Below are positions 9,698 to 18,663 of a DNA stretch of 64,000 nt, one piece after another. Below the pieces are notes generated by a model that had not been told where the DNA came from, made no database searches, and saw nothing but the letters and a program-made list of their open reading frames with translations. The DNA comes from an uncultured SAR116 cluster alpha proteobacterium (GTDB taxonomy: Bacteria > Pseudomonadota > Alphaproteobacteria > Puniceispirillales > Marisalimonadaceae), in the NCBI GenBank assembly GCA_902590245.1, contig CACIWG010000003.1:21602-85601 (forward strand). Reading direction: 5' to 3'. A program made the position numbers and the translations under genes. How positions within the stretch are numbered: the stretch's first letter is position 1; every line of letters begins with the position of its first letter.

Positions 9698-10484
9698 GTA
9701 ATTTCTCTTGTGATAAATAATAATATGCTAAACCGTTTATTGTTAAATTTTGTTCAATTAGGTCAATAGATTTTATATTGTTTTTAAAAACCTGGCTTAA
9801 ACCACCTGTTGCAATTACTTTAGAGTTCGAATGATATTTTTTAAGTTTATTAATTAAACCTTCTATCATACATACATACCCCCAAAAAACACCTGACTCA
9901 ATAGCAGATATAGTACTTTTTCCTAATAAAGTATTTTTTTCATTATCAAGTGATTTTAGAGAAATTTTAGGTAACCTGGATGTTGATTTGTAAAGAGATT
10001 CAATTGATAAATTAACTCCTGGAGAAATTATACCACCTAAGTATGCTCCTTCTTTTCCAATAACATCAAAAGTCGTTGCAGTTCCAAAATCAATAATAAT
10101 TGCTGGATCAAATTTCATTTTCTTAACAGCAAACGCATTAATAAGTCTATCTTGTCCGGCTTCATTTGGGTTTTGTAAATTAATTTTAATATTTAATTTA
10201 TCTGGTTCTACTTTAAATATAGGCAGATCTAAATTATTTCGAAAATAAATTTCTATATTATATAATATCTCAGGAACAACAGAGGCAATTGCAACACCTT
10301 CTATTTTTTTTAAATTATAATTGTTAAATTTAAAACATTGATTTATTATTAAAGAATATTCATCAGGAGTTTTTTTTAAATCTGAAAATATTCTAAAAGA
10401 TTTAAGTAATTTGAATTTAAAGTCTGACCTTTCATAAATAGCAAAAACTGTATTTGTATTGCCAATATCAATAACTAAGAACAT
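9687..10484 (-). CDS. coaX: Type III pantothenate kinase
   Basis: 'MFLVIDIGNTNTVFA', 'AGQDRLINAFA', 'AIIIDFGTATTFDVI', 'GGIISPGVNLS'. Confidence 0.95.
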   Translation of the reverse strand: MFLVIDIGNTNTVFAIYERSDFKFKLLKSFRIFSDLKKTPDEYSLIINQCFKFNNYNLKKIEGVAIASVVPEILYNIEIYFRNNLDLPIFKVEPDKLNIKINLQNPNEAGQDRLINAFAVKKMKFDPAIIIDFGTATTFDVIGKEGAYLGGIISPGVNLSIESLYKSTSRLPKISLKSLDNEKNTLLGKSTISAIESGVFWGYVCMIEGLINKLKKYHSNSKVIATGGLSQVFKNNIKSIDLIEQNLTINGLAYYYLSQEKLHEI

Positions 10485-11218
10485 ATATTACCTGTTTTAA
10501 GGATAGTTTCACTAGATGTAAGATATAAATAATTATTATCATTTAACAATATTTTTAAATTTCCATCAGAATTAATGCCGATTATTTTACCAGATTTGAT
10601 CATTTTACCATGGTTAAAATTTATTTTCTTATTTAAAAAAGCTAAGTTTGAATTTATTTGATTCAAAAATGGATTAAGAAAATTTGATAACCAAATATTA
10701 TAATTTTTATAAAAAAATTCTAATAATTGTGTAGATAAAATTGATAGTTTAAGCTCACTTGTATTTATATGATTACTAAGGCAAGTGCTATTTATACCTG
10801 AAGTATACTCACCAGGATGTGAGTTTATATTTAATCCCACCCCAATTACGCAAAATTTTTCATACCTCTCCACAAGAATCCCCGAAACTTTTTTTGATTC
10901 AATTAAAATATCATTAGGCCATTTTATTTTAATTTGTTTTTTATTTAAACCTAATGATTTTATGAATTGTAATAAACTTAAACCAAAAATAATAGAAATC
11001 TGACTCAATTTGATAATTTCTACATTTGGTCTAATTAAAGTTGATAAAAAAAGGTTGCCAGGAATAGATGTCCATTTTTTTTTTCTAGTTCCCCTACCAC
11101 AAGTTTGGTTAATACTTAATAGAGAGTATCCCTCGGGGTAACCTTCGTTTGCTAATTTAATTAACGAAGAATTTGTACTTTTACATTCCTCAATTATCTG
11201 AAGGTTAATATTTATCAT
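10475..11218 (-). CDS. birA: Biotin--[acetyl-CoA-carboxylase] ligase
   Basis: 'TCGRGTRKKKWTSIPGNLFLSTLIRP', 'IKWPNDILIESKKVSGILVE', 'VIGVGLNI'. Confidence 0.93.
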   Translation of the reverse strand: MININLQIIEECKSTNSSLIKLANEGYPEGYSLLSINQTCGRGTRKKKWTSIPGNLFLSTLIRPNVEIIKLSQISIIFGLSLLQFIKSLGLNKKQIKIKWPNDILIESKKVSGILVERYEKFCVIGVGLNINSHPGEYTSGINSTCLSNHINTSELKLSILSTQLLEFFYKNYNIWLSNFLNPFLNQINSNLAFLNKKINFNHGKMIKSGKIIGINSDGNLKILLNDNNYLYLTSSETILKTGNICS

Positions 11219-11222
11219 AATC

Positions 11223-12212
11223 TTAAATTTTAATATTTGATATCATGTAATCAAATATAGGAAATAAAGCAAAAAACAAAACACTTACAAATAATGACAA
11301 ATTGATTAAAAAACTGATTTCTCTATTCCCATCAAAAATAAGTGGGGTATCTGAATTTTCAAAAAACATTACTCTTATAATTTTTAAATAATAAAATGCA
11401 GAAACAACTGAAAATAAAACACCTAAAGTAGCTAATATATAAAATCCACTATCTATTGCTGAAAAGAAAACTAGCCATTTGCCAAAAAAACCTGATAGTG
11501 GTGGAATTCCTGCTAAAGAAAACATGAAAATTAATAAACAAATTGACATAAATGGATGATCATTATATAGACCTTTTAAGTCTAATATTAATTCTATCGG
11601 TTTATCGTCTTTTTGAAGACTTAAAATAATAGCAAAGACACCAGTTAAAAGAAATAAGTAAATAATCAAGTAATACATTATTGCATGCAGACCTTTTTCA
11701 GAAAATGCAACCATACCAACTAAAATAAAACCCATATGGGCAATACTTGAATAAGCAATTAGCCTTTTTAAATTTTTTTGAACAATCGCTCCAATAGATC
11801 CAACTAACATAGATGATAAAGATAAAACGATAATCAAATCAGAAAGATTACCATGAATGCCAGAAAAAACTCTATAAATTAAATAGATAAAAATACCAAG
11901 AATTGAAATTTTTGGAGCTGTAGCAATAAAAAAAGTAATTGGAGAAGGAGTGCCCTCATAGACATCAGGAGCCCACTCATAAAACTCTGAAAATTGATAT
12001 TGTTTTTCAGTGTAATTAAATTTTAAACACAAGAGTAATGTCATCAGAAGTGTCATTATACTTGTCCATAAAGATACCAATTTAATATTAGTAATTGAAT
12101 TTTTTAAAATTTTACCTTCTTGATCAATTTTATTAGGTATTAAAAGTACTAAGAAAGCCCCAAATATTGGAAGGAAAATTAAAATACTTAATATTGGCCA
12201 ATTTTCAATCAT
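11223..12212 (-). CDS. nuoN: Chimeric NuoM(N-term)-NuoN(C-term) ORF; apparent in-frame deletion fusion
   Basis: 329 aa, far shorter than a typical NuoM or NuoN. Residues 1-80 (MIENWPILSILIFLPIFGAFLVLLI...YQFSEFYEW) look like a NuoM N-terminus; residues 81-329 (APDVYEGTPSPITFF...LKRLIAYSSIAHMGFILVG...SLAGIPPLSGFFGKW...) look like the NuoN C-terminal half. It occupies the nuoM-nuoN position between nuoL and birA. Confidence 0.85.
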   Translation of the reverse strand: MIENWPILSILIFLPIFGAFLVLLIPNKIDQEGKILKNSITNIKLVSLWTSIMTLLMTLLLCLKFNYTEKQYQFSEFYEWAPDVYEGTPSPITFFIATAPKISILGIFIYLIYRVFSGIHGNLSDLIIVLSLSSMLVGSIGAIVQKNLKRLIAYSSIAHMGFILVGMVAFSEKGLHAIMYYLIIYLFLLTGVFAIILSLQKDDKPIELILDLKGLYNDHPFMSICLLIFMFSLAGIPPLSGFFGKWLVFFSAIDSGFYILATLGVLFSVVSAFYYLKIIRVMFFENSDTPLIFDGNREISFLINLSLFVSVLFFALFPIFDYMISNIKI

Positions 12213-14149: not shown

Positions 14150-14476
14150 TCATCCTTTCAAAGTATTGATTTCTTTTACATCAATGGAGCCTTTATTTCT
14201 AAAATACACTACTAGAATTGCAAGCCCAATGGCAGCCTCTGCCGCAGCTACAGTTAATATAAACAATGAAAAGATTTGGCCTGTTAAATCATTTGAAAAG
14301 TATGAAAAAGCAATAAAATTTATGTTAACTCCTAATAAAATCAATTCAATCGACATCAAAATGCTTATAACATTTTTTCTATTTAAAAAAATACCAATAA
14401 CACCTAATAAGAAAATTAATGAAGAAAGAATTAAGTAGTGATTAATTAATATTGGAAGATTAAAAAATTCAAGCAT
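14150..14476 (-). CDS. nuoK: NADH-quinone oxidoreductase subunit K
   Basis: '[34 protein letters not shown]', '[16 protein letters not shown]'. Confidence 0.97.
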
Positions 14477-15075
14477 TACGCACCTTCATTATTTTTTACG
14501 CTAACTACTTCAATAACATCCTCTTTTTTGGTGTCAACTTGGTTCTTTATGATTTGCTTTTTTATACCTTGTCTTTTTCTAAGAGTTAAAACGATTGCCC
14601 CAATCATGGCTACAAGAAGAATAACTCCACACATTTGAAATAATAACGCAAAATCAGTGTACAAAATGTTACCAAGAGAAATTGTATTATTTTTTTGTTC
14701 TAAATTCTGAGTATTTGATAATTTTTCAAGAGTTGAATTGTCTATAATCAAAAAGTACAGAAATTCTACTAATATAATAGAACCTAAAATTACTGAAAGT
14801 GGTTTAAATTTTAAAAATTTTGATTTTTTTTCTTCAATAGTAATATTTAGCATCATAACTACAAACAAAAATAAAACAGCTACTGCACCAACATAGACTA
14901 CTATCAATAGCATTGCTAAAAACTCAGCATTTAGAAATAAAAATAAAATAGCAGAATTAATAAATGCAAGAATTAAATAAAGAACACAATATACTGGATT
15001 TTTAGACGTAATTACACCAATTGATGACAATATTACAAAAAAAGAAAAAATATAAAATAATATTGAATAGTACAT
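14476..15075 (-). CDS. nuoJ: NADH-quinone oxidoreductase subunit J
   Basis: '[51 protein letters not shown]'. Confidence 0.97.
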
Positions 15076-15081
15076 AAAATT

Positions 15082-15576
15082 CTACTTATAAGGCGAATCT
15101 ATTTTCTGAGCTAATGCAATCTGTTCTTCCCATCTATCTCCATTGGCTAACAATTTTTCTTTATCATAAAAAAGTTCTTCCCTAGTTTCCGTAGCGAACT
15201 CAAAATTTGGCCCTTCAACAATAGCGTCAACAGGACAAGCCTCAGCACAAAATCCACAATATATACACTTTGTCATATCTATATCATACCTAGTTGTTCT
15301 TCGACTACCATCTTCTCTTGGCTCTGCTTCAATTTTAATGGCTTGCGCAGGACATATAGCTTCACATAATTTACATGCAATACATCTTTCCTCACCATTT
15401 GGGTACCTTCTTAAAGCATGTTCACCTCTAAAACGAGGAGAAAGCTTACCTTTTTCATAAGGATAATTAATTGTAACCTTCTTCTTAAATAAATATTTGA
15501 AAGTAAGAAAAAGACCTTTAAATATTTCTATAAGAAAATATTTTTTTAAGTCATCTATTATATTTTTAAATTTCAT
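15082..15576 (-). CDS. nuoI: NADH-quinone oxidoreductase subunit I (start reassigned to the internal ATG at 15576)
   Basis: Two 4Fe-4S motifs '[16 protein letters not shown]' and '[16 protein letters not shown]'. The ORF-track start at 15609 adds 11 residues that do not look like NuoI. Confidence 0.96.
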
Positions 15577-15583
15577 AACAACC

Positions 15584-16624
15584 TCATATGCTTTTTGGCA
15601 AAATGTCAAAAAAAACTAAAAATCCTGCAGTAAGTACAACCCAAATAAGAGAAAAAGGAAGAAAAATTTTCCAACCTAATCTCATCAATTGGTCATATCT
15701 GTATCTTGGTGTAGACGCTCTGACCCACAAAAAGATAAATAAAATAAAAATAATTTTTATAATGAACCAAATTACACCAGGAACTTCATTTAGAGGATAT
15801 ACATCAATTATTGGCAACCAACCACCTAAAAACAAAGTAACTGTCAATGCACTCATTAGAATCATATTTGCGTATTCTCCTAGAAAAAACAAAGCAAATG
15901 ACATTGAAGAATATTCTACAAAGTATCCAGCCACTAATTCAGATTCTCCTTCTGGCAGATCAAAAGGTGCTCTATTAGTTTCGGCAAGTACAGATATAAA
16001 AAACATTACAAACATTGGAAGAAGAGGTATTGCAAACCAAACATTTTTTTGTGCATTTACAATATCGGTTAAGTTTAAAGATCCAGCGCATAATAAAACT
16101 GTTATAATAATTAAACCAATTGAAACTTCATATGAAACCATTTGCGCAGCAGATCTTAAAGCACCTAAAAAAGCATATTTAGAATTGCTAGCCCAACCGG
16201 CAATAATAATTCCATAAACAGCTAATGAAGAAACTGCAAATAAATAAAGTATTCCAACATTTATATCTGCTAATACGTTATTTTCATCAAAAGGAATAAC
16301 GGCCCAAGCAATTAGAGCTAAAATAAATGTAATCATTGGTGCTAATAAGAATAAAAATTTATTAGCCTCTCTTGGAATAATAGTCTCTTTGGACATTAAT
16401 TTAAGGGCATCAGCAAAAGGTTGAAATAAACCAAATGGACCAACTACATTAGGGCCTTTTCTCAATTGCATTAATCCGATAACTCTTCTTTCAGCAAGTG
16501 TCAAATAAGCAACACTAATTAACAAAGGCAAAACGATAGCAAGTAATTTTAAGATAATAATAATAAAATAAGAAAAGTCACTATGTCCAAAAACACTAAT
16601 TCCAAAATCGTTTATAAAATTCAT
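15584..16624 (-). CDS. nuoH: NADH-quinone oxidoreductase subunit H
   Basis: '[33 protein letters not shown]', '[26 protein letters not shown]'. Confidence 0.98.
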
Positions 16625-16626
16625 AA

Positions 16627-18663
16627 TTAATCTTTAACCTGACTGCATTCAGCCATAGTGCTTGAGCATCTAGAAATAGGACATGTCATAAAGAAATTTT
16701 TATTTTCATAATTTAATTTTGAAGATTTAAAGTCTGATTTTGTTATTATTTTTGGTTCTGAAGAATAAATATTTTCATCAAATTTTAACATTTTTTTTGA
16801 ATTAAACATTTTTTCACGAAGTTGAAGTAAATTATCAAAATCTAATTTTTTTCCTAGCTTTTCTGACAATGCTCTTAAAATTGTCCAATCTTCTTTCGCG
16901 TCTCCCGGTGGAAAAGTTGCTCTTTGAGCATATTGTAACCTTCCTTCTAAATTAGTATAAGACCCATCTTTTTCAGTATAAGCAGCTCCAGGCAGAATTA
17001 CATCAGCTAATTGAGCACCTTTATCTCCATGATGTCCTTGATAAATTACGAAACAACTACTTATATCAAAATCAAAATCATCTGCATTAAGTAAATAGAC
17101 AAATTTAATTAAATTATTATTAATATCATTTTTGAGAGCTGAATGGTTATAGTCAGAATACTCACTTAATATATCAATTGCACCAACTGTACTTGCATAA
17201 TTATGTAATATATTAAAACCATTCCATTTTTTATTAAATCCACCAAATTTTTTTAGAATAGAAATAGAAACTTTTTGAACATCTAAACTACAATCATTTT
17301 GCAATACTTCATCTCCAATGATTATCATTGGAAAATTAGCTTTTTTAAAATCATTTGAAATTTTATTTTTCCCTTCTAAGATTAAATTTAATATTTTTAC
17401 ATCAGACCCTAAGTAATCATAATTAAATTTTAGATCAAAATGTTGGGATGAAATAGATGATATTTTCAAATCTCTATGAATATAATTTTTTCTAATTCTT
17501 GCGTTCAAGATAGCGCTATCAACTCTAGGATTTGCTCCAATTAACAGAAGGTAATCGCATTTATCAAGTCCCTTGATTTTACTATTAAATAAATAATTTG
17601 ACCTATTTTCATTTGAAAATATTAATTTTTTTTGAAATGGTAAAATTTTGTTTAAATTAAGTTTTTTAAATAATTCTTTAAAAGCAAATATTGCTTCATT
17701 CTCAACTTGATTACCAACAACACCTACACAGTTTTCACTTGAAATTTTACTAATTTTAGAATTAATAACTTCAAAAGCTTCATCCCATGAAACTTTTTGC
17801 AATTTATTTTTTATTTTAATAAAAGGAGTATCTAAACGTTGTTTTGACAAGCCATCAATTGCATATCTTGATTTATCAGATATCCATTCTTCATTAATAC
17901 TTTCATTATTCTTAGGCAATATTCTTAAAACTTTTCCATCACGACTATCAATTCTTATATTTGAGCCTATAGCATCCATTACATCAACAGATTCTGTTTT
18001 TGTAAGCTCCCAAGGTCGAGCTACAAATTGATAAGGTTTAGAAGTTAAAGCACCAACAGGGCATAGATCAACCAAATTTCCTGATAGTTCTGAAGTCACA
18101 GCTTTTTCAAGGTATGTTGAAATTTCAACATTTTCTCCTCTTCCAGTTGCTCCAAGATCTTCTACCCCTGCCACTTCATTTGCAAATCTTACACATCTTG
18201 TACAATGAATACACCTTGTCATCGTTGTTTTGATTAAAGGACCCATATTTTTATCAGAAACTGCTCTTTTAGAATTTTCAAAACGAGTTTCACCTTTACC
18301 AAAATAAAGTGCTTGATCTTGAAGATCACATTCACCACCTTGGTCACATATTGGGCAATCTAAAGGATGATTAATTAACAGAAATTCCATAACACCTTTT
18401 CTTGCTTTATCAACCATTTCAGATGATGTTTTAATAACCATTCCTTCAGAAGCTGGCATTGCACATGACGCAATAGGTTTTGGAGCTCTCTCCATCTCCA
18501 CCAAACACATTCTACAATTTCCTGCCACTGATAGTTTTTCATGATAACAAAATCTTGGAATTTCAACACCTGCTGCTTCACACGCTTGTAAAACTGTAGA
18601 TCCTTGTGGCACTGATATTTCAATACCATCGATTTTAATATTAATATTTCTTAATTCGTCCAT
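16627..18663 (-). CDS. nuoG: NADH-quinone oxidoreductase subunit G
   Basis: 2Fe-2S '[27 protein letters not shown]', '[15 protein letters not shown]', '[13 protein letters not shown]', molybdopterin-type domain. Confidence 0.97.

Follow-up and report, generated by a model that had tools for sequence, protein, structure and literature searches.

In the genome analysed here, the nuo operon (minus strand) raises the question of why a single ORF of 329 aa lies 3' of nuoL, at the position where relatives carry both nuoM (498 aa) and nuoN (486 aa). The window, the whole 64,000-nucleotide stretch of DNA that was analysed, is part of contig C3 (85,601 bp) of a 1.56-Mb genome, which consists of 72 contigs, is 75% complete and has SAR116-cluster alphaproteobacteria as its nearest named relatives. 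An earlier note on this DNA had described the ORF as a NuoM-NuoN chimera and had left three options: a recent deletion, an assembly or amplification artefact, or a viable shortened membrane arm of complex I. The features of the locus are listed in Table 1.

Table 1. Features of the nuo locus and its downstream flank, in window coordinates
Feature	Position	Strand	Basis
Fused ORF NuoM(1-80)::NuoN(237-486), 329 aa	11223..12212	-	ORF list, NCBIfam, BLASTN vs relatives
nuoM 5' end, 80 codons, two predicted transmembrane helices	11973..12212	-	collinear with L037:3804 onward, ~93% nucleotide identity
nuoN 3' half from WAPDVYEG motif, seven predicted transmembrane helices	11223..11975	-	collinear with L037:6015-6768; NCBIfam NuoN match
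GTGGG 5-bp microhomology at join; 1,975 bp absent vs intact relatives	11972..11976	-	BLASTN
nuoL, intact, 644 aa	12214..14148	-	ORF list, profile search
nuoK, nuoJ, nuoI, nuoH, nuoG, intact ORFs	14150..18663	-	ORF list; dN/dS 0.02-0.11
birA, intact, downstream flank, gene order as in relatives	10475..11218	-	ORF list and relatives

BLASTN of positions 13600-10401 against four relatives gave two gap-free blocks of 91-94% identity, which met at 11972-11976. In these closest SAR116 relatives, the spacing of the two blocks was exactly 1,975 bp wider than in the window. Residues 1-80 of the fused ORF corresponded to NuoM 1-80 of the relative L037, and residues 80-329 to NuoN 237-486, so that 418 of the 498 residues of NuoM and 236 of the 486 residues of NuoN are gone, with equal identity to L037 on either side of the join (93.2 and 93.1%). 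These results bore out the proposal of a NuoM N-terminus fused to the C-terminal half of NuoN, and the earlier estimates of the join position and of about 2 kb of missing sequence proved correct. At the join, the relatives read GAGTGGGTTCC or GAATGGGTTCC on the left flank and ATGTGGGCACC on the right, and the window reads GAGTGGGCTCC. The 5 bp GTGGG are common to the flanks and the window (TGGG in two of the four relatives), in agreement with the microhomology that had been suspected from a shared tryptophan. Since random breakpoint pairs in this region share at least 5 bp with P ~0.015, the join looks microhomology-driven. The fusion is also in frame, as previously claimed, because the deletion length (1,975) and the frame offset from nuoM to nuoN (1,504) are both 1 mod 3; the chance of an in-frame join is 1 in 3.

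Comparison of the 85.6-kb contig with three relatives showed that this deletion is the sole structural difference unique to the window's genome, the rest being collinear. When the missing 1,975 bp were sought in the whole assembly, they were not found, and only matches of chance size appeared. Homologous exchange between nuoM and nuoN could be rejected, as NuoM residue 80 meets NuoN residue 237 at non-equivalent positions with 5 bp shared. A pure repeat-driven assembler error is unlikely, since 5 bp is far below assembly k-mers; for the same reason, we infer that joined molecules must have existed. Another apparent deletion, located at 18.5 kb on contig C3 and upstream of the window (G000:C3:18533-18661), turned out to be a variable site at which MED-G100 (G006) alone carries an extra segment of ~1 kb compared with this genome, G007 and G009.

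We next determined what the fused ORF is by profile search. The comparison with NuoN profiles, which the earlier note had proposed as a check, showed that the NCBIfam NuoN models match residues 77-319 only (profile positions 223-465 of 477). The scores lay far below the NuoN cut-offs (275.7 bits vs 519 for NF004440 and 253.5 vs 332.6 for TIGR01770), and with matching only from about profile position 222 on, the product is not a full-length NuoN. Nor is it a NuoM of ~500 aa with a central antiporter domain, as it holds NuoM residues 1-80 only; the NuoM model TIGR01972 gave 130.6 bits vs a cut-off of 263.8, mostly on the NuoN part (residues 78-318). Annotation would label the fused ORF simply as a short NuoN.

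An antiporter-like subunit has 14 transmembrane helices in two inverted-repeat halves, and in intact NuoN seven helices lie ahead of the WAPDVYEG motif. Hydropathy of the fused ORF predicted nine helices instead, two from NuoM followed by seven from NuoN, with NuoN helices 1-7 gone. Judging from the established 14-helix topology, the membrane orientation of the NuoN half would be inverted in the fusion, because two helices precede it instead of seven and the parity is changed. The nuoN half retains its APK, LKRLIAYSS and GKW lysine motifs, and by motif comparison the fusion keeps the equivalents of E. coli NuoN K247 and K395 and loses those of E133 and K217.

The locus was then compared with that of relatives. 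The SAR116 genomes MED-G100, AG-903-E20, AG-919-E16 and AG-919-I04 share with the window the order nuoL, nuoM, nuoN, birA, coaX and RNase J and, to the left and right of the join alike, ~93% nucleotide identity, but they have two genes where the window has one fused ORF and 1,975 bp fewer. Among the 12 other genomes of the same genus, intact nuoN was found in five, intact nuoM in six and the fusion in none; the remaining members lack the locus, these genomes being 54-78% complete. In the closest same-genus genomes with the locus assembled (n = 5), nuoM was ~500 aa and the nuoN ORFs were 486-505 aa, with nuoM in a sixth. Thus, in the close relatives, both genes are full-length wherever assembled. 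Searching 289 alphaproteobacterial genomes with 115 aa across the join revealed no second join-spanning ORF among the matches listed; the homologues there matched one half only, as separate ORFs of usual NuoM or NuoN size with a few exceptions.

To assess selection, dN/dS was compared across the locus. The genes nuoG-L, whose ORFs are intact as the earlier note had it, gave 0.02-0.11, the nuoN part of the fusion 0.08-0.11 and its short nuoM part 0.08-0.21. Neighbouring genes span a range that includes these values, and comparisons between relatives gave similar ones. By dN/dS, the nuo genes and both fragments are under normal purifying selection, with neither decay nor relaxation seen, and nothing pointed to a complex I adapted to a shorter form. 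With identity and purifying selection both normal, the deletion is either very recent or not in the cell.

Substitutes for the lost genes were sought as well. A second nuoM or nuoN elsewhere in the genome was ruled out, as the other three antiporter-like genes, on contig C9, sit in an Mrp operon. This Mrp-type cation/proton antiporter operon (L118:284-7124, G000:C9) includes mrpF, mrpG, mnhB and mnhC-like genes, and its antiporter-like subunits of 499, 483 and 568 aa are the genome's only PF00361 genes besides nuoL and the fusion. NqrA was not found in this genome (75% complete) or its genus, and complex I is therefore probably needed here. A generic Pyr_redox_2 search for an NDH-2 substitute gave 13 matches in this genome, in a family that is not specific to NDH-2. 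Within family f1, genera g2 and g3 (G013, G014, G016, G017, G019-type genomes) showed no NuoH match and carried NqrA in nearly all genomes, and no NqrA was found in genera g1 and g4. The pattern in g2 and g3 matches the published finding that nqr took the place of nuo in the SAR116 genera LGC2-C and LGC2-D (PMC8547437). Complex I was lost wholesale there, within the same family, but the operon was swapped for nqr, whereas the window's genome keeps the rest of nuo intact with no nqr found.

Taken together, we consider it most likely, with a probability of about 0.7, that the join is a template-switch artefact of multiple displacement amplification (MDA) and absent from the organism. The points in favour are the intact relatives, the sole unique structural change, the normal selection, which left no time for decay, the absence of nqr, the contig sizes and the benchmark error rate. 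The contig-size profile suggests a single amplified genome: the 72 contigs are sorted by size, and the smallest is 2,047 bp, close to the smallest sampled contigs of the SAG relatives AG-903-E20 (2,089), AG-919-I04 (2,324) and AG-919-E16 (2,207) and unlike the MAG MED-G100. In the SCGC pipeline, contig ends are trimmed and contigs >2,000 bp retained (PMC5519541), and its workflow benchmark gave 1.5 misassemblies per 100 kb (PMC11247762), so that more than one would be expected in 85.6 kb. In MDA chimeras, the joined ends typically share matches of 2-21 nt, and complementarity of this kind is present in 90.9% of direct joins <10 kb (Lasken and Stockwell 2007, PMC1855051). The window join resembles them in its 5-bp complementary stretch (chance ~0.015), its segments <10 kb apart, its probable single-cell-type assembly and its absence from the relatives.

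During phi29 amplification, which presumably took place for this genome, a growing 3' end probably switched template at the GTGGG match and skipped 1,975 bp of the nuoMN segment. As single-cell coverage is very uneven, the chimeric copy would then have outweighed the true copy in the assembly. The 1,975-bp piece, if assembled alone, would fall below the 2-kb contig cut-off and would have been dropped; in the cell, nuoM and nuoN would both be full-length and ordinary. Against an amplification origin, direct-orientation joins <10 kb, the type seen here, make up only a small share of MDA chimeras (11 of 475; PMC1855051), and the join is in frame. In addition, the genome is not riddled with artefacts: ~204 kb of contigs C1 and C2 showed whole-gene differences and one other gene-cutting deletion, which looks genuine.

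A genuine and very recent loss-of-function deletion, arising in this cell or its immediate lineage through slippage or end joining at the microhomology, is possible but clearly less probable. NuoM and half of NuoN would be lost, complex I would be unassembled or inactive and NADH would be oxidised by other routes; the mutation would either be about to disappear or mark the beginning of complex I loss. Microhomology deletions occur in vivo too, no contig of the assembly contains the missing segment, and another gene of this genome has a genuine-looking internal deletion. Members of the family also tolerate complex I loss if something replaces it, since the sister genera have lost nuo and nearly all carry NQR (PMC8547437). 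However, NqrA was not detected here, no nuo gene showed decay or relaxed selection, and the deletion is shared by none of the relatives examined. Moreover, sampling a single genome seldom catches a strongly harmful mutation, whereas pipelines of this kind make about 1.5 assembly errors per 100 kb.

The remaining reading, that the fused protein replaces NuoM and NuoN, two of the three antiporter-like subunits, in a viable shortened complex I that still couples pumping, is very improbable: the ORF is in frame with start and stop kept, the flanking nuo genes are intact and the retained lysines include the counterparts of K247 and K395, both essential to NuoN of E. coli (PMC13073174), but relatives are intact, no homologue joins both halves among the matches listed, the NuoN-half topology would be inverted, the pieces diverge no more than the rest of the operon, unlike what a new role would lead one to expect, and E. 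coli without NuoN has no fully assembled complex I (PMC13073174), and here NuoM is missing as well. A real and functional fusion would mean that complex I can do with one or two pumping modules fewer, which would bear directly on its proton stoichiometry and coupling. For now, the locus is a caution that microhomology joins in single-cell assemblies can yield clean in-frame fusions resembling biology.

Outside the window, the other gene-cutting deletion lies at G000:C1:16880 (L083:16880), where a luciferase-like monooxygenase gene (PF00296) has lost 811 bp internally; the locus is undeleted in eight other members of the genus. The remnant to the left of the join has degenerated (84% identity), and exactly at the join the identity to G009 rises abruptly to 97%, a pattern that points to a real deletion accompanied by recombination and away from an artefact of amplification. 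Along C1 as a whole, identity between this genome and contig C1 of G009 alternates between ~87% and 95-97% in sharp-edged blocks; such mosaicism suggests that SAR116 lineages have exchanged DNA by homologous recombination.
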